IMG/VR virus record: IMGVR_UViG_3300048440_000252 | Coordinates: 1-22,656 of that record | DNA: 22,656 nucleotides | Source of the DNA: a virus | Strand: one strand, 5' to 3' | Shown here: positions 1 to 16,774 of the stretch, one piece after another | How positions within the stretch are numbered: position 1 is the stretch's first letter | How the letters are laid out: each line of letters starts with the position of its first letter | The notes under the pieces: generated by a model | Told to the model about the DNA's origin: nothing | The model's database searches: none | The model's input: only the letters and a program-made list of their open reading frames with translations | Program-made: the position numbers and the translations under genes

Positions 1-1770
1 CCAATAGTTGCGCTAAACTCACCAGTTGCCACATCGTATGAAGCGTCTGTTGGAGTAAAGTTTAAGAATTGAGTAGCAGGATAAGCATGCTTTGTTGCAT
101 TGCCATCAAGTGCACATGTAAATACTAAACTATGTGGTTCAATATAAATTTCATCGCCAATGTTAAAGTCATTAGAACCAATCGTCATAACAACTGAACC
201 TGTTGCAGGGTCATATACAGCGTTAGTTGGTGTATATTTTTTACCGTTGTTATTTAGTAATCTTGACATTTCATCAAAAGAAGCATTTGATCTATCAATA
301 GCAATTGAGTTATCACCAATAAATGTGGCAGCCCTTGCTTTTAAATAATCAATAGAACCAACAGTTTGTTCTAACTGTTCAGTAACACTTACCTCACCAG
401 ATTTAGTACGGTAAGCAGCGCCAGTTTGAATTGCATTATAGTTTGTACCAAGGATTAAGTCACGTTGTACTGCAGGTAAAATATATTCTTCAGTATCTCT
501 GTGGCATTTTTTGCTATCGTAGAAATACCATTCGTTATCTGCCCATTCCATCATGTAGTCTTGGATATATTCTTTATTTGCTTGTAGCATTTTACGTGCG
601 TTACGTTTATCTACAGATATACCAGAGTTATCAGAATATGTCAATAGTTGTCCGATAACTGATACTGCATTATCTTTAGCTTCAACAAATCTATGTTCGA
701 AGTTAGCAGCCGTCAGTCCTGGGTTAACCGTGATAGTCTTAGCTGACACAGCAACGATTGGAAGCGCAGCCAAGTAAGCTTTTTCTGATTTGCGTGGATG
801 GCTAATTTTTGTTTTAAAGTTATCACTTGAACATGTGAATGTAAATGATTCTTCAGCAAGGTTAACATATCGGCCAACAGTTAAATCGTGTGTACCGATA
901 GTGATAACCATCATACCAGTTGTTGGGTCGTACGTAGCCTTAGTTGGTGTATATTTGTCGCCTGAGTTTGCAATCGTATCAATAACGTTATTAAATGCAG
1001 AGTAAGCCGATGTAGCTGCTGGTGCAGAGTTGGCTTGAATTAATTCGTCAGTTGTTTTGCGTAATCTCTTAAACGAAGCGATTGTTTCGTTGCGTTGGTT
1101 TTCAAGGCTTGTTCTTGCAGTGTTAACATAATATGCTAATCCAGCGTTTTCAGAATTATAATTTGTATCTAACAACATGTCGTATTTAACGGCAGGTAAG
1201 ATATATTCCTGAACATCGCGCTCACACTTAACACTATCGTAAGCATAGAACTCGTCGTTATTGTCGATCCAATCAACAAAATCATTAATGATTAAATCTC
1301 TGTTAGATTGAACAAGTTCTCTAGCAGCCGTTTGGTCAGACTTACCAGTATCTGAGAAGATAATTGGTTCAGCCGCAGCCTCGCCATTTTGTAAAATGTT
1401 AAGAGTTTCATCAAGTGATGTGTTAATTCTGTTCGTTAACTCAGAAGATGCGTTTGCAAAAATACCACCTGCTGAGCTGGCGATAGAGTCTTTAAGATGG
1501 TTAATAGAACCAACAGTTTCAGTTAATTGCTCATCAACTACAAGATATGAAATTGGTGAACGGTATGAAATACCATTTAACCGACCCCAGTAGTTACCTT
1601 TTGTAGCAATATCGTAACCAGTGTTATCAACGATAATTCCTGTATCACGGAAACATTTATCAGCATTATAACCTTGATAACCCAAACCACCAGACGCAGT
1701 GTTTGATGTCAAGTAGTAAACCATATCATCAACAATTTCGTCTGCCTTTTCTGTCAATACGTCTGCGAAT
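1..1770 (-). repeat. Degenerate C-terminal module repeats in the giant fibre protein
   Basis: Three copies of a motif K-C-x-R-D occur at 1644-1658 (KCFRD), 1215-1229 (KCERD) and 495-509 (KCHRD). In the last two copies Y-I-L-P-A-V and D-T/G-T-N-Y-N follow. Two copies of E-x-T-V-G-S-I-x-x-L-K lie near 1484-1530 and 347-385. Three copies of Y/F-T-P-T-x-A-x-Y-D-x-x-T-G lie near 914-960, 198-243 and 21-59, the last running into the edge. The copies are spaced unevenly (about 429 and 720 bases between KCxRD motifs), so modules have been partly lost or reshuffled. The repeats probably continue beyond the window. Confidence 0.7.
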
Positions 1771-4109
1771 GCAGAGTTAGCAATCAAGTTACTTTGATTT
1801 GCCTCGGCTGGTCGAATAATAACAGTTGAACCACGAGCACGCATTGAAATGTCACCGAACTGAGAACCTGAGTTGTTCAAAGTCATTTGACCACCATCTA
1901 AGGCGAAGAACGCTTGGCGTGTAAAGATTGATAATGAACCAATACCGTTAACACCAGCACCGTTTTTAGCAACGTATCCTGTACCATTTTGAGTACGAGG
2001 TGTAAAACCAAAACATAATACGTATGTATATAGTGAGTCGGTATCAAGTTGTGCTCTGTCTGCTAATAGACAACCGCCGCCTCGACCAACTAATCTGTTA
2101 GGGAAATCATCAATACCAATTGACTCGATAGTACCTGAACCACCACGTTGTGCGTATAGAACATCTCCAACTTCAACGTTGCCTTTTAGGTTACGAACAT
2201 AAATTTGTCTGTTTGCATCAATATCATCGATGTATGATACATAACCTGTTGCACCGCTTGAGAATGTTACCTCATCGTCAACTTCGAATTGAGATTGCGC
2301 AGAGTGACCTGCTACTAAATAGAATTCTTGACCTAAATCAAGGATGGTACCTTTAGAGTTAAATGGATTTAACGGAGGTTCAACATCAAGTCTATTAAAG
2401 TTTGAAAGCTGAGTAGAGTCACGAAGATATGGTGAACGTCTTAGTAGAGCACCCGGTCTGTAAGCGATAGCAAAACCACCTTCAGGTTGGTCAAAGTTAT
2501 CAACTTCAAAGTTCATATATGAGAAACCTTGTACATAACAACCAGATCCAACAAGAACACCATTTGTTCTTTCGTATCCTTTTTTCTTTTGAATAACAGT
2601 AGCATACTGACCAGCGGTTGATGTCATGGAACAATCATCAGGTAGCATAATTGGTTCATCAACATAGTAAGTACCGGGACCTACTGAAATGTGAACAGCA
2701 TCATTAATTGCGTTACGGTTATATGATCCACCAGCTTTTTCTAAAGCGATTTGTTCAGCACGCTTTAGCGTACGAACTGGCTGTAAAATAGTTCCTGGGT
2801 ATTTGTCGTCACCATCTGAAGCAACATGTACTTTAAGTGATTTTTCTGTTTTCTTAGAAAATTCTTGATACAACTGACGATAAGTCATTTTCTCTGTATC
2901 GCCAGTCTTGACGTTTTTCAGAGCAAAGTAACTATCTTCATCAAGCATTGGCTCAAATTGTTTAGTAATGTTCATATCAAAGTCGACAAAAGTACTTTCT
3001 TCGATTGTCGAATTAGATACCACACCGTCTTTAAATTCTGAGTTTTCAATAACAGATTTTTGTTGGCCAAGTCCTTCAGTAGATGAACTTGTGATAGTCA
3101 TATTCTGAGCAGTTACATTATCCAAAGTACCTTGGAATGACGAGTCAGTAATAACGTTATTAGCAAGTGTACCATCTTGGATTGTAGTATTAGTAAATAC
3201 GTTATTATTACCAGTACCATCAGAGAAATCTGAGTTTGTAATGCTAGTATTATTAGCAGTGCTATCGTTAAGTTGTGAATTCGTAATAACGATATTGTTC
3301 GCTGTTGAGTCAATGATAGATGAGTTACTTGTTACAGTATCCCAAATCAGACCATTAGCAAATCTTGAGTTTGTAATTGTTACGTTATCTAAATCAGTAT
3401 CACGGATATCGGAATTAGAAATATCTGTATCAACGATAGTAACATTTGATACTGCAGTGTCTCTAATTGTACCATTGCTAAAGTCAGTAGTAATAATTAC
3501 TGAGTTTGACATTAATGCATCTTCGAGAACAATTTCGTCAATCGTAATATTAGTAAGGATTAAGCCATTCGCTGTACCTTGTTCAATAGCAACGTTCGCA
3601 AAGGATGAGTTATCAACTTGCGAATTAGTAAAGATATTATTATTGCCGGTTCCATTAGAAAAATCGGATTGGTCAATCGCCATGTTATTGGCAGAACTAT
3701 TAAGGATTGTTGAGTCGTCAATAGTTGAATTAGTTAAAACAACATTGTTACCAGTACCATCATTAAACTCAGAATCAGTAATTACTGAATTCGTAATAAC
3801 AAAGTTATTAGCATCAGAGTCTCTTAGATCTAATTCAGTACCAAAGCTTCCAAGTAAGGAACCGCCAGAGAATACAGAGTCGTTTATTTCAACATCATTG
3901 AGAGTTGAAACCGACATAATGACGTTTGAAATAGTTCCGCCAGTAATTTTAATATTGTTGAAAATCTCGAATTGTAACGCTTGAACCAGTTCTTTACGTG
4001 TGATGTTCTTTGTACCATCATCACCTTGGATCAAGTTAACAATAACGAAAAGATCCTCAGATCTTGTATTGGCGCCTGTTATCGGACCGAGTTCTGAAAT
4101 CAATGACAT
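1..4109 (-). CDS. Giant tail-fibre-like protein with pentapeptide-period solenoid, C-terminus cut by window edge
   Basis: The frame is open from an ATG at 4109 to the left edge, giving at least 1369 residues with no stop. The start is supported by a strong Shine-Dalgarno (AAGAAGG, 9 nt upstream) and a late promoter 35 nt upstream. Layout: residues 1-50 are a short N-terminal segment (MSLISELGPITGANTRSEDL...). Residues 52-380 form an Asn/Asp-, Ser/Thr- and Ile/Phe-rich solenoid with a 5-residue period. Residues 425-540 read like the start of a pectate-lyase-type right-handed beta-helix (VHVASDGDDKYPGT, then AVHISVGPGTYYVDEPI). From about residue 780 to the edge there are three degenerate copies of a module carrying K-C-x-R-D, two of them with a T-V-G-S-I element, and three Y/F-T-P-T-x-A-x-Y-D motifs. 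These features resemble cyanophage-type virion structural proteins, so a fibre or spike with a host-contact role is inferred. The family name is not certain. Confidence 0.85.
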   Translation of the reverse strand, partial: MSLISELGPITGANTRSEDLFVIVNLIQGDDGTKNITRKELVQALQFEIFNNIKITGGTISNVIMSVSTLNDVEINDSVFSGGSLLGSFGTELDLRDSDANNFVITNSVITDSEFNDGTGNNVVLTNSTIDDSTILNSSANNMAIDQSDFSNGTGNNNIFTNSQVDNSSFANVAIEQGTANGLILTNITIDEIVLEDALMSNSVIITTDFSNGTIRDTAVSNVTIVDTDISNSDIRDTDLDNVTITNSRFANGLIWDTVTSNSSIIDSTANNIVITNSQLNDSTANNTSITNSDFSDGTGNNNVFTNTTIQDGTLANNVITDSSFQGTLDNVTAQNMTITSSSTEGLGQQKSVIENSEFKDGVVSNSTIEESTFVDFDMNITKQFEPMLDEDSYFALKNVKTGDTEKMTYRQLYQEFSKKTEKSLKVHVASDGDDKYPGTILQPVRTLKRAEQIALEKAGGSYNRNAINDAVHISVGPGTYYVDEPIMLPDDCSMTSTAGQYATVIQKKKGYERTNGVLVGSGCYVQGFSYMNFEVDNFDQPEGGFAIAYRPGALLRRSPYLRDSTQLSNFNRLDVEPPLNPFNSKGTILDLGQEFYLVAGHSAQSQFEVDDEVTFSSGATGYVSYIDDIDANRQIYVRNLKGNVEVGDVLYAQRGGSGTIESIGIDDFPNRLVGRGGGCLLADRAQLDTDSLYTYVLCFGFTPRTQNGTGYVAKNGAGVNGIGSLSIFTRQAFFALDGGQMTLNNSGSQFGDISMRARGSTVIIRPAEANQSNLIANSAFADVLTEKADEIVDDMVYYLTSNTASGGLGYQGYNADKCFRDTGIIVDNTGYDIATKGNYWGRLNGISYRSPISYLVVDEQLTETVGSINHLKDSIASSAGGIFANASSELTNRINTSLDETLNILQNGEAAAEPIIFSDTGKSDQTAARELVQSNRDLIINDFVDWIDNNDEFYAYDSVKCERDVQEYILPAVKYDMLLDTNYNSENAGLAYYVNTARTSLENQRNETIASFKRLRKTTDELIQANSAPAATSAYSAFNNVIDTIANSGDKYTPTKATYDPTTGMMVITIGTHDLTVGRYVNLAEESFTFTCSSDNFKTKISHPRKSEKAYLAALPIVAVSAKTITVNPGLTAANFEHRFVEAKDNAVSVIGQLLTYSDNSGISVDKRNARKMLQANKEYIQDYMMEWADNEWYFYDSKKCHRDTEEYILPAVQRDLILGTNYNAIQTGAAYRTKSGEVSVTEQLEQTVGSIDYLKARAATFIGDNSIAIDRSNASFDEMSRLLNNNGKKYTPTNAVYDPATGSVVMTIGSNDFNIGDEIYIEPHSLVFTCALDGNATKHAYPATQFLNFTPTDASYDVATGEFSATI
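3120..3809 (-). repeat. 46 consecutive pentapeptide repeats (15-bp coding period)
   Basis: Residues 101-330 of the giant fibre protein can be written as 23 rows of ten residues with no insertion or deletion. Position 5 and position 10 of each row are mostly I, L, F or V. Positions 2 and 7 are N or D in 40 of 46 cases by my count. The consensus is [S/T/N]-[N/D]-x-x-[I/L/F]. Three near-identical islands carry F-[N/S]-[D/N]-G-T-G-N-N (residues 115-122, 150-157 and 295-302). The Asn/Asp sits two residues after the hydrophobic centre. In canonical A(D/N)LXX pentapeptide proteins it comes immediately before it, so this is a related but shifted pattern. A right-handed four-sided or similar beta-solenoid is inferred. 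Confidence 0.8.
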
Positions 4110-4191: not shown

Positions 4192-4710
4192 TTACTCTGT
4201 TTTCCAGAGCACAAAATTATCTATAGCATCCCTATCAACATATTTTCTTTCGCGTAAAATATTAGACTGATAATCGTTTACTTCTTGTTCGTTATTTAAT
4301 ACGGTACCGTCAGCACCTTTGGCGAACCACCATTTATTACCATCATACTGAACAGTTTGAAATACTTCAAGTTCAGCCTTTGTTCCTTCAACTAATGAAT
4401 TACCATTTTTAGTTAATCTATATACATCTGTTGGGTCAAAGTCAGCATTTCTTTCTAGGATATCTGGGTTCCTATAAACCATATGAAGAGTTTTAAGAGT
4501 ATTCCTGCGGTTCATTCCAGCATCATACGGGTCTCCAAACTCAGTACATAATTCTTTTATTCTGTTATCAAATTCTTCATCATTTCTAACATACGAACAT
4601 CCGGCTTCGTATCCTTCGATATTATTTGCAACTACATATCTTTCGTAATATGCTCGACCAACATCACACCATCCCATATCGGCATCGTTCATCATTCTTT
4701 TAATATCCAT
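4192..4710 (-). CDS. Hypothetical 172-residue protein following the adhesin gene
   Basis: I do not recognise this family. The product is 172 residues, with a high content of charged residues, Asn and Tyr, and no membrane segment or signal peptide. It starts MDIKRMMNDADMGWCDVG and ends in WKTE. A central segment, DPTDVYRLTKNGNSL, is followed by a Trp-containing stretch (GNKWWFAKGADGT, residues about 124-136). Its ATG overlaps the stop codon of the glycine-rich adhesin gene by one base (TAATG), which suggests translational coupling. It is the last gene before a late promoter. Its place directly behind an adhesin gene makes a fibre-associated or fibre-assembly role possible, but nothing in the sequence proves this. 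Confidence 0.8.
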   Translation of the reverse strand: MDIKRMMNDADMGWCDVGRAYYERYVVANNIEGYEAGCSYVRNDEEFDNRIKELCTEFGDPYDAGMNRRNTLKTLHMVYRNPDILERNADFDPTDVYRLTKNGNSLVEGTKAELEVFQTVQYDGNKWWFAKGADGTVLNNEQEVNDYQSNILRERKYVDRDAIDNFVLWKTE

Positions 4711-5789
4711 TAGTCTCTACCCCACACAGTACCGTTGTTTGTTACGCTAACTTGCCCGTTATCAGTAGTAATTTCAAATGCAAGACCACCTGCGCCACCG
4801 TCACCGCCACAATTACCGCCAGAAGCACCCCAGCCGCCACCACCTGCACCATGTCCAGTTCCGCCACCGCCACCTGCATTGTTTGCGGCACCACCAACTC
4901 TACCTGTTGTGTCTCTACTTCCACCACCGCCTGCGCCGCCATCACCCGGAAGTACACGACCGCCACCGCCACCAGAACCAGAGTCAACTTTGTTTCCTTT
5001 ACCAGAACCATTGTCCCAGCCGCCTCCGCCGGCACCTGCGCCGCCACCTTTACCACCACCAGCATCGCTATCGTCTGGAGCATCAGCACCTTTTGTATTT
5101 AATGCGCCACCAGCACCTGGGTTTCCGGCTGCACGATATCCTGTACCACCTGCGCCACCGCCAGCTCCACCGCCACCACCAGCACCAAGTTCACCTCCAC
5201 CGGAACTACCACCGCCACCACCTGCAGCGACATAAGCGTCTGCTTCATTAATAAAAGTAATTGGTGATACGTTACCAATTTTTATAGCAGGTCCACCTGC
5301 TCCACCGTTGGTTACTTGACCTGCGTTAATTGTTCCGCCACCGCCTCGACCACCTTTACCTATAATGATACCTTTGTTACGAAAGATTATATTACCTGTC
5401 ATAGTGTCAGGAATAATTAATCCACCTTTGCTAGTATCATCTGACCAAAGCCAATAGTCTGCAGGTAATGTAATATCATAAAAACCACCTTCGTCTCTAT
5501 AACCCATAGCAAATAGTGCATCCCATAGGTTGCATTCTTTGATATTATATTTGCTATTAATTTGAGTTTCAGATATTGGAATCCATTGATCTTCAGTAAC
5601 AAATCTAATACCAGATTTGCCATAAAAATCGCTAAATTTAATTGTGCCTGATTGTGGTAAACCTATGCCGGGAGGTAAGGTTCTGTACTCACTAAGTTGA
5701 TAGGGAGTTTGGTTTAATGTACCACCAAGTGGTTTAAACTCGTCGTGTATTTCTGTAAACGTAAGCGGTCCGCTGCTCTTAATAGTCAT
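4710..5789 (-). CDS. Glycine-rich tail-fibre adhesin-like protein
   Basis: The product is 359 residues. Residues 1-60 are an ordinary N-terminal domain with the marker G-P-L-T-F-T-E-I-H-D-E-F and the closing F-S-D-F-Y-G-K-S, a form common at the start of marine phage structural proteins. Residues 61-142 are a globular, Trp- and Tyr-containing part. Residues 143-335 are dominated by runs of three to six glycines. The tail (336-359) is a normal beta-type sequence ending TVWGRD. The layout resembles glycine-rich receptor-binding adhesins of T-even phages (gp38 class), in which glycine runs pack as polyglycine-II helices. A host-recognition role at a fibre tip is inferred, because no sequence match to gp38 can be checked. 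The Shine-Dalgarno AGGAAAG lies upstream, and the previous stop is only 3 nt away. Confidence 0.8.
   Translation of the reverse strand: MTIKSSGPLTFTEIHDEFKPLGGTLNQTPYQLSEYRTLPPGIGLPQSGTIKFSDFYGKSGIRFVTEDQWIPISETQINSKYNIKECNLWDALFAMGYRDEGGFYDITLPADYWLWSDDTSKGGLIIPDTMTGNIIFRNKGIIIGKGGRGGGGTINAGQVTNGGAGGPAIKIGNVSPITFINEADAYVAAGGGGGSSGGGELGAGGGGGAGGGAGGTGYRAAGNPGAGGALNTKGADAPDDSDAGGGKGGGAGAGGGGWDNGSGKGNKVDSGSGGGGGRVLPGDGGAGGGGSRDTTGRVGGAANNAGGGGGTGHGAGGGGWGASGGNCGGDGGAGGLAFEITTDNGQVSVTNNGTVWGRD
4785..5363 (-). repeat. Low-complexity glycine-codon tract, locally GC-rich
   Basis: This is the coding segment for residues 143-335 of the adhesin. The plus strand is full of CCACCGCCACC-like triplets, making this the clearest GC-rich island in an otherwise AT-rich window. 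It also opens long spurious frames on both strands. Glycine runs are separated by short variable insertions such as GWDNGSGKGNKVDSGSG. Such tracts could change length by slippage or recombination; that is inference. Confidence 0.85.
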
Positions 5790-14206: not shown

Positions 14207-16774
14207 CTAACCTCTTCTACGTATATTAGGTCGTGGGTAAACTTTCCCAGATGCAGGTCTTGTTTTAAAATTTTGCTTTGGAAGTGTGTTTCCGTCTATT
14301 GGTCGTTGATTATACCATCTTAGATATTTATTTGCCGCGCCTTGTAAACTATTTCTATCGTACGCATCGTCTGTACCAGAGTCATACATGGCATTCATAG
14401 TTGCGTTATTAAGTAACCAATCCTCTGCCTCTTCCTGAGTTAGGTTAGGCCAAGACTCTGCAAGCAAAGCAACAACACCTGCCACTTGTGGGCCAGACAT
14501 ACTTGTTCCTTGATACTTACCTAATTGATAACTACTATTTCTAGCATCGTTTACACCACCTGAGTGCAAACTACTTTGAATGGCTTCGCCGGCTGCGTAA
14601 ATATCAACTTGGTTACCGCAATTACTAAACGTTGCTTTAACTTCATTAACATTATTTGATGTAGCTCCAACGTTAATAACCGGATTAAACCCAGCGCCGG
14701 AACCTGTACCGCGGTTAAGATAATATGTTTGGTCAAATCCATAATATTGTACTTCGTATGTATTATTCCAATCTTGGTCTGATTCGTTAACAGTTTTCCA
14801 ACTATCATTACCTGCCGATGCTACAATAATAATTCCGTCATCTATTGCGTCTTGCATATCAGCTTGGCGTGAAGTAAACCAATTTGGAATATCCATTTGT
14901 AAAGATGGAGCATAACAACCACGAGCTCTTAATTCAGTTGTAGTTAAATCTCGTCCTGGGCTAAACTCTGTACCCCTATATGTAATACTTGTAATGTTAC
15001 CAAAATTATCTTCAGCTGAACCAACAGGTATAGAACTACCATAACTATTGTTTGTAATAGTAGGATTGCGTCTACCAGTTGTAGGGTTAATGGCTTTTGT
15101 ATTATGCCATTCTCTAATGTAATCCCACATCCTTGTACTTGATAAACTATTTGGGTTTGAACCATATGGACTAATGTTATAAACTGTTGCTGAACGTGCC
15201 CAACCTTGAGTATTCCCTGCTACAGTTCCACCACAATGGCAGCCATGATTATTATCAGCTTCATCTGCTACGTTTGTATATGAACCTGAACGATTATATG
15301 TATATGTACCATTTGATCCAAATCCTAAAGCACTTGTTAACGAAAACCAATTAAATTGATTAATTCTTGAAGCGCCGTTTGCTGCTGGTGTATAATATGA
15401 AGGACCGTTATCATTATCCCTAAAAATATCTCTTAAAACAACAAAGTCTGGTTTACTTAACACTGGTTCAAAATATGATTTAAATAGGGCGTACCCTTTC
15501 GGATTATTAGTTAACATTCCAGATGGAGTTTTTACTGAGTCAGACCATTCCGGTGACAGTGATCCACCATCCCAAAAAGTACTCATATCCCACATTGACC
15601 AGTTCATCAAATACATATATTCTTTATAAGCTACCTCAGCTGCCTCATCCACTGTTGCCCAATCGGATGCATAACCAGACGGATCAAAAAATCCGCCATC
15701 AATAGCTTCTTTCATAGCAAGGTGCAATTCTGTTGTTTGCCAATTAACATTATTAGTTGCTAACCAATTCACAGCTGTTTCAGATCCCGGCACCGCACCC
15801 ATAATACCAAACAAATGTATTGTGTGCATAAGATGTTCTACAAGTTCTTCAATATCTCTATCACCAACCGACGGGCTTGGCCCGCTAATATTAGCATACC
15901 AAACCATATCGTTATGTACGTGGTTATCTAAAAAATCTACGTATCCTGCATACTGTGCAGCGCCTGCGTCTGTTAAAAAGTTTGGACTATATTCAGAACC
16001 ACCACCGTATGCAATTCTTTGAACGGCAGGAAGTCCTGCGTGTATAGTTCCTGTAGCGCCTTGTAATGTTTTAATTAAATTGATTTGATGGTCTACATTA
16101 ATAAGAGGATATGTTGGATCAATTAACAATGTTACCATTTTGGCAGTTTTTTCTGCCCACATATCAGGTACTGCGGTTTGACCTCCAACTGCGCCTGCAA
16201 CAACCATCTTTAAACCACGAGCTGTTATTTGTCTATTAAATACTGCTCCATTAGATGAGTCACTTATAAGTGCACCATTTGAATAATCTGTCTCAGTTCC
16301 AATTGCTGCAAATTCTGGATGTGCTGGGTCAATATGTCCATCAACGATAACAACATCAACATTTTTACCTGATGCAGTTACGGTTAAATCAGAGTTTATA
16401 TTTGCAACTCCATTATCTCCCCAGTTACTTCTATTTGCGGCTTCAGAATGTCTAAGTAAACCCCAGTTAAAATCTGTTGCGTCTGTAAACCAATCTTTTG
16501 AAAACTTTTGATTAACGACTGACCATCCTTGAGGTTTGGTAGTCAAATCAATTAATTCTACTAAGTCACAGCCCCAGACTCTAGGATCGTTTTTTAATTC
16601 TTTCGCTTCTTCATTGGTTAACATATAATGAGTATTGCGACTTATGCTTCTTCTATCAACAACGGGTACTGCTCGACCCGGAATGTACAACGCTCCACCT
16701 TCATTTTCCATGTCATCGTAAAAGGAATTTAAATCCTCTTTATTATGAAGTGTAACAATCCATTCTTTTTGCAT
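14207..16774 (-). CDS. Subtilisin-like (S8) serine protease with large domain inserted between catalytic Asp and His
   Basis: The product is 855 residues. Residues 1-78 look like an I9-type pro-region (WIVTLHNKEDLNSFYDDM, later HYMLTNEEAKELKNDPRVWG), an intramolecular chaperone normally removed on maturation. Catalytic residues by motif: Asp145 in VVIVDGHIDPAHPEF, His510 in HGCHCGGTVAG, oxyanion Asn656 in ASAGND, Ser758 in GTSMSGPQVAG. All are present, so the enzyme is probably active. The Asp-His distance is 365 residues, against about 32 in subtilisin BPN', because a separate domain of roughly 280 residues lies between them. There is no signal peptide, so it acts in the host cytoplasm or on the virion. 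It sits between the gp7-like/fibre genes and gp8, inside the tail cluster. A role in processing a fibre or baseplate protein, or as a virion enzyme acting on host surface protein, is inference. The start is supported by AGAGG 8 nt upstream; the fibre gene ends 1 nt away. Confidence 0.9.
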   Translation of the reverse strand: MQKEWIVTLHNKEDLNSFYDDMENEGGALYIPGRAVPVVDRRSISRNTHYMLTNEEAKELKNDPRVWGCDLVELIDLTTKPQGWSVVNQKFSKDWFTDATDFNWGLLRHSEAANRSNWGDNGVANINSDLTVTASGKNVDVVIVDGHIDPAHPEFAAIGTETDYSNGALISDSSNGAVFNRQITARGLKMVVAGAVGGQTAVPDMWAEKTAKMVTLLIDPTYPLINVDHQINLIKTLQGATGTIHAGLPAVQRIAYGGGSEYSPNFLTDAGAAQYAGYVDFLDNHVHNDMVWYANISGPSPSVGDRDIEELVEHLMHTIHLFGIMGAVPGSETAVNWLATNNVNWQTTELHLAMKEAIDGGFFDPSGYASDWATVDEAAEVAYKEYMYLMNWSMWDMSTFWDGGSLSPEWSDSVKTPSGMLTNNPKGYALFKSYFEPVLSKPDFVVLRDIFRDNDNGPSYYTPAANGASRINQFNWFSLTSALGFGSNGTYTYNRSGSYTNVADEADNNHGCHCGGTVAGNTQGWARSATVYNISPYGSNPNSLSSTRMWDYIREWHNTKAINPTTGRRNPTITNNSYGSSIPVGSAEDNFGNITSITYRGTEFSPGRDLTTTELRARGCYAPSLQMDIPNWFTSRQADMQDAIDDGIIIVASAGNDSWKTVNESDQDWNNTYEVQYYGFDQTYYLNRGTGSGAGFNPVINVGATSNNVNEVKATFSNCGNQVDIYAAGEAIQSSLHSGGVNDARNSSYQLGKYQGTSMSGPQVAGVVALLAESWPNLTQEEAEDWLLNNATMNAMYDSGTDDAYDRNSLQGAANKYLRWYNQRPIDGNTLPKQNFKTRPASGKVYPRPNIRRRG
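15365..16207 (-). other. Domain nested inside the S8 protease (residues about 190-470)
   Basis: This segment interrupts the subtilisin fold between Asp145 and His510. Conserved-looking blocks include VPDMWAEKTAKMVTLLIDP, AGLPAVQRIAYGGGSEYSPN, NHVHNDMVWY, ELVEHLMHTIHLFG, KEYMYLMNWSMWDMSTFWDG and SLSPEWSD. His285, His287, His314, His317 and His320, together with nearby Asp and Glu residues, could form a metal site, but there is no canonical HEXXH. I recall similar blocks in proteins from marine and cyanobacterial sequence data without an assigned function. The boundaries are approximate. Confidence 0.6.

Follow-up and report, generated by a model that had tools for sequence, protein, structure and literature searches.

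Pentapeptide repeats near the start of a giant fibre protein in uncultured marine T4-like phages

Results

A giant fibre gene beside T4-like baseplate genes

The window, that is, the whole 22,656-base stretch of DNA analysed here, is an IMG/VR viral record. It carries an open reading frame (ORF) for a giant virion protein, in which the following features were delineated.

3..4109, minus strand: ORF of the giant tail-fibre or virion structural protein, with an ATG start, 1369 aa visible and the 3′ end beyond the contig
3954..4109, minus strand: N-terminal cap or attachment segment, residues 1-52 (EDLFVIVNLIQGDDGTKNITRKELVQAL), nearly invariant in relatives
3129..3953, minus strand: unbroken pentapeptide-repeat array of 55 units, residues 53-327, from the register parse, PF13599 and the AlphaFold2 models
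3120..3809, minus strand: the 46 units first reported, residues 101-330, within the larger array, by register count
2982..3128, minus strand: break (residues 328-331) followed by about nine more pentapeptides to residue 376, from the register parse
2835..2981, minus strand: second cap-like segment, residues 377-425 (EDSYFALKNVKTGDTEKMTYRQLYQEF), with a weak likeness to the N-terminal cap

The C-terminal part of the ORF has PHROG matches to virion structural and tail fibre proteins, and in longer contigs of relatives the whole fibre protein is found as open frames of 2863-4120 aa. These downstream modules of the fibre recur in the giant structural proteins of T4-like cyanophages (Synechococcus phages S-WAM2 and S-SSM4; P-RSM6), but seven such cyanophage genomes had no match to the Pfam family Pentapeptide_4 (PF13599) or to the profile of cap and array.

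The neighbouring genes form a T4-like baseplate set, with wedge proteins that include gp25-, gp6- and gp8-like ones, along with a subtilase-domain protein, a giant DUF4815 protein, a fibre carrying an S74 chaperone and a protein rich in glycine. Among cultured phages, Sinorhizobium phages phiN3, phiM19, phiM12 and phiM7 encode the closest relatives of the gp6-like protein, at ~40% identity. In phiM12, a tail-fibre gene lies beyond the gp8-like gene and genes of 1.8 kaa, which matches the position of the fibre genes here; the T4-like phages phiM12 and Cr30 gave no PF13599 match. The subtilase-domain gene (14207-16774, minus strand) lies within the baseplate cluster, and its cyanophage relatives are annotated as subtilisin-like proteases beside a baseplate wedge or tail pin gene. 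The very glycine-rich protein with many GGG runs, encoded between the fibre genes (4710-5789, minus strand), is like the polyglycine adhesins of T4-like phages in composition alone and had no Pfam or PHROG match.

Repeated, helical-looking modules on the minus strand (327-644, 1047-1364 and 1476-1793) contain an invariant KCxRD motif (K46, C47, R49 and D50 in alignment A3). The module at 1047-1364 lies inside a Pfam Phycobilisome match above cut-off (24.6 vs 22.2 bits). Up to E 1, the module profile matched only phycocyanin alpha chains in the PDB, with the KCxRD stretch aligned (E 0.12-0.93), and the Cys of this alignment is probably the bilin-binding cysteine. The signal is weak and inconsistent across relatives and serves as a lead only.

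The array keeps a strict five-residue register

A preliminary description of this locus had proposed an ungapped solenoid of 46 pentapeptides in a phage fibre, with Asn/Asp displaced from the canonical position. The strict register over 230 residues was borne out, as 3120-3809 encodes exactly 46 five-residue units without a gap. Position 2 is Asn in 27 and Asp in 13 of the 46 units, in agreement with the earlier figure of about 40, and the hydrophobic position 5 is Ile, Leu, Phe, Val or Met in 37 of 46, with Ala or Gly in most of the others. The best-phase combined score was 77, far above that of shuffled sequences (mean 31.4, s.d. 2.3, maximum 44 in 20,000 shuffles). The figure of 46 ungapped units stands for the window but understates the extent of the array, which has 55 unbroken units of the pattern (S/G/T)-(T/V/D)-(I/F/L)-(T/N/S)-(N/D) and about nine after the break, in total ~64 near the start of the giant fibre protein. 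The DNA repeats are diverged, with only 60-78% identity, and a recent tandem DNA duplication was rejected on that account.

The segment that follows the array has the look of a second copy of the N-terminal cap, as seen in TRKELVQ and TYRQLYQ. The pairwise score between the two segments was 33 against a shuffled mean of 19.9 and was reached by 8 of 1000 shuffles, and the second segment forms strand-strand-helix in AlphaFold2 model 1 (see below). Related caps may thus flank the solenoid on both sides.

A coil of a pentapeptide-repeat protein (PRP) comprises four units and rises by ~0.48 nm. At this rise, 46 units (11.5 coils) span ~5.5 nm, 55 units 6.6 nm and 64 units ~7.7 nm, so that calling the 46 units a long rod was an overstatement.

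Relatives vary in length by whole pentapeptides

Two scans of viral contigs found 145 and at least 215 metagenomic stretches encoding relatives. Only three contigs matched in a genome collection, all in one Rhodobacteraceae bin; this is a weak hint at Rhodobacteraceae hosts, since a phage contig may end up in the bin of any genome. Among cultured phages, tblastn of the array gave no match at 1e-5, to which low-complexity masking may contribute, and the N-terminal cap alone gave none. With E up to 10, the array had weak matches including Lactobacillus phages LP65/Iacchus and E. coli phage O18-011, which we rejected as relatives: theirs are other fibre repeats, and the two that were scanned had no PRP match. 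PRP repeats also occur in phage proteins from uncultured Caudovirales and from huge phages (BFVD A0A6J7X720 and A0A6J5LUV9; LR756501). A 735-kb uncultured phage genome encodes five-residue repeats rich in W/F, N and G (WANGTFNGG; L112:3001-3582), with weak PF13599 matches in the stretch near this position and elsewhere. Literature searches returned no paper joining pentapeptide repeats with the tail fibres of bacteriophages, or with beta-helices in such fibres. Beside phage virion terms, pentapeptide repeat referred to a host gene in one paper and, in another, only to jumbo-phage annotation lines.

The first 58 residues do not vary in length among the 78 sequences. The N-terminal cap region contains most of the family's invariant columns (alignment A1), the array being far more variable than the cap. 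In 54 distinct sequences, the distance from the end of the cap to the second cap is 294-364 residues. Modulo 5, the array length is 4 in 36, 0 in 15 and 3 in 3 of these, and never 1 or 2; modulo 20, all four phases occur. The ungapped array is a trait of the window's clade, while other relatives carry one-residue insertions; gaps aligned against the window are of 5, 10, 15 or 25 residues, in addition to single-residue bulges and two cases of 16 residues. Whole pentapeptides, not whole coils, are gained and lost.

Profile searches place the array among PRPs

The window protein matches PF13599 above the cut-off of 38 bits, with 42.8 bits for the whole protein and 53.1 bits for the N-terminal part; 49/49 scanned relatives match the family as well (best E 2.3e-19). 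In the PDB, the profile of the relatives matched mainly PRPs, namely designed beta1 repeats, 6FLS, AlbG, NP275-276, MfpA and SV2 luminal domains. In the printed alignments, the inward I/F falls on the Leu of A(D/N)LXX, S on the Ala and N/D on the last position. With the inward residue denoted i, the family has I 43, F 18, L 13, M 4 and V 4% at i and S 38, G 19, T 11 and V 11% at i-2, i.e. the hydrophobic i and the small or uncharged i-2 of PRPs.

The SV2 luminal domain (LD_SV2; 4JRA, 5JMC), a solved PRP, is matched by 48/49 relatives at E up to 1 (best 2.1e-8) and by model 1 with VIA Z 13-14.6. It differs in having about five coils and in belonging to a membrane transporter, and the window protein scores below the cut-off of the SV2 luminal family PF23894 (22.4 bits vs 29). 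An antifreeze protein was rejected, as the window protein is below the cut-off for CfAFP (PF05264; 16.1 bits vs 25.9), a match that probably stems from a shared Thr/Asn-rich composition.

Since Pfam, the profile search of the PDB and the fold searches agree on PRPs, we take the array as a PRP in the known register and reject a distinct solenoid fold. The separate solenoid class envisaged earlier is not supported, given the match above the Pentapeptide_4 gathering cut-off, the alignment of solved PRPs in the standard register, which the preliminary description itself had named as evidence against such a class, and the published consensus.

Asn/Asp is enriched two residues after the inward position

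The displacement of Asn/Asp proved to be real. In the window array, N/D is found in 80% of units at i+2, two residues after the inward hydrophobic residue, and in 15% at i-1, directly before it. Across the family, i+2 is N in 45, D in 26 and G in 9% of 3305 units from 53 distinct relatives (71% N/D), under a parse that slightly favours N, D or G at this position; the window count of 40/46 is independent of the parse. At i-1, the same 3305 units have T 36, V 13, D 11, S 8 and E 7%. The 80% of the window array, obtained by a parse without i+2 preference, exceeds the N/D share at i+2 in the five solved PRPs counted (designed beta1 14%, NP275-276 6%, AlbG 23%, 6FLS 38% and EfsQnr 56%), which are a small and partial sample taken from printed alignment stretches. 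PENT (6FLS) and EfsQnr (2W7Z) are PRPs rich in N/D at i+2, but they are stand-alone bacterial proteins with a weaker bias than here.

Asn and Gly favour positive-phi conformations, and Asn/Asp at i+2 therefore fits type II corners, where Asn may have a corner role. The type II corner turns of PRPs have a phi of ~+80 degrees at i+2 (PMC7337050). The amended PRP consensus has G/D/E/N/R/Q/K at i+2 (PMC7337050, PMC8145042) and commonly any charged or polar residue at i-1 (PMC7337050), and the family lies within it at both positions. The older A(D/N)LXX form is not followed, given the N/D share at i-1, but that form is typical rather than defining. The array is thus like the PRPs of PF13599 and PF00805 in its five-residue register, hydrophobic i, small i-2, PF13599 score and predicted four-sided coil, and it differs from them in having Asn/Asp at i+2 instead of i-1, in its ~64 units and in its place in a giant phage fibre. 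The i+2 bias is a strong sequence variant within the known PRP pattern, not a distinct fold; the putative Asn ladder of the earlier proposal is plausible.

Structure prediction and a 20-residue period suggest a four-sided coil

AlphaFold2 placed a three-residue strand every five residues. Model 1, built with all relatives, had a pLDDT of 61 and a partly formed solenoid, with array ends devoid of strands. Model 2, built with an alignment limited to relatives with fewer gaps, was one continuous solenoid over all 281 residues (pLDDT 64.5, pTM 0.52), and mean pLDDT was 84-88 in residues 241-280 of the model except for the last block. VIA-align returned almost exclusively PRPs for model 1 (residues 105-295, Z up to 15.1). 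For model 2, the PRP HetL was best (Z 19.4, 2.8 Å over 215 residues), with long right-handed beta-helices such as autotransporter passenger and tailspike within about one Z unit. The pentapeptide solenoid in a phage fibre proposed in the preliminary description is supported, and the confidence of both models is modest.

Many tailspikes and lyases were returned for model 2 by VIA-align and Foldseek, as would be expected if the array were a right-handed beta-helix with three sheets, of the ordinary tailspike or pectate-lyase type, and owed its five-residue look to chance. This is highly improbable, since 55 units run without a register slip whereas tailspike and lyase rungs are longer and irregular, and since HetL heads the matches of model 2 while those of model 1 are nearly all PRPs.

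In a PRP, the same-face neighbour is four units away, and the lag at which residues recur can tell a four-sided coil apart from other shafts with five-residue repeats. Both inward positions, i by residue class and i-2 by identity, showed enrichment at lag four (z 4.1-7.2 by position and redundancy level) and depletion at lags one and five, and the enrichment held with 34, 20 or 10 representatives. These z-values are inflated by shared ancestry, and the evidence lies in how the lags differ. At surface positions there was an additional peak at a lag of three units. The test was underpowered on the window sequence alone. The inward positions thus have a 20-residue period, and the models, of modest confidence, match PRPs, both as would be expected of a four-sided helix.

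T4-like fibres are usually trimers, and three intertwined chains could form the shaft, with every five residues of a chain making up one side, as they do in the shafts of other trimeric phage fibres. This would accommodate the length steps of 5 rather than 20, the modest confidence of the monomer models and the strandless ends of model 1, and other strict five-residue repeats do occur in fibres of cultured phages (GTAQIANGAITNAQIGSLAV, LP65/Iacchus). However, repeats of the LP65/Iacchus kind have no Pfam PRP match, which all 49 scanned relatives here have, and the inward positions recur at four units, not one or three. We regard the intertwined trimer as quite unlikely.

Discussion

We assign a probability of about 0.75 to the reading that the array is a PRP four-sided coil acting as a rigid ~7 nm spacer in a T4-like fibre, behind a conserved N-terminal segment. 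The array would adopt the Rfr-fold, a right-handed four-sided beta-helix with four units or 20 residues per coil and ~14-16 coils, its core filled by I/L/F/V (sometimes A/G) at i and S/G/T at i-2. N/D/G at i+2 would hold the corners, where type II turns give the positive phi best tolerated by Gly and Asn. The conserved N-terminal segment probably anchors the protein, either at the T4-like baseplate or at the base of the fibre. In a fibre of 3-4 kaa, the rod would precede distal modules that are beta-structured and repeated, its length evolving by gain and loss of whole pentapeptides. The points counting against this reading are the modest models, the tailspike likeness of model 2, length steps of 5 and not 20, with the array ending in each of the four orientations, rare D/N at i-1 and the surface peak at lag three. 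We are most confident of PRP membership, less so of the packing within the fibre, including the oligomeric state of the rod, which we infer, and least of function, for which position, regularity and length variation make a spacer the likeliest role.

Alternatively, the PRP rod itself might be a binding surface for a receptor, carbohydrate or Ca2+ via its Asn/Asp ladders and not mainly a spacer. The exposed rows of Asn, Asp and Thr and the variability of the array relative to the cap would suit this role, and the luminal PRP of SV2 is a domain that binds protein (PMC8145042). The array, however, adjoins the conserved N-terminal segment and, with the fibre oriented as usual, would be far from the tip, and the variable number of units suits a spacer better; a binding role is unlikely. 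More speculative, and decidedly unlikely, is the idea that marine phage fibres contain a PRP subclass of their own, with an Asn/Asp corner ladder at i+2 in place of the one at i-1, three four-sided helices running parallel or intertwined, and a length tuned per pentapeptide, each unit rotating the distal fibre by 90 degrees.

The PRP-spacer reading places a PRP rod, as an apparent spacer, in the fibre of a widespread group of uncultured marine T4-like phages. This is a new PRP-bearing fibre family whose repeat is of an already known kind, most likely a familiar building block in a new place and not a new kind of structure, and knowledge of the PRP fold itself is unchanged. The many natural variants that differ in length by one unit are useful for testing how PRP coils tolerate single-face insertions, and also for relating fibre length to host adsorption.
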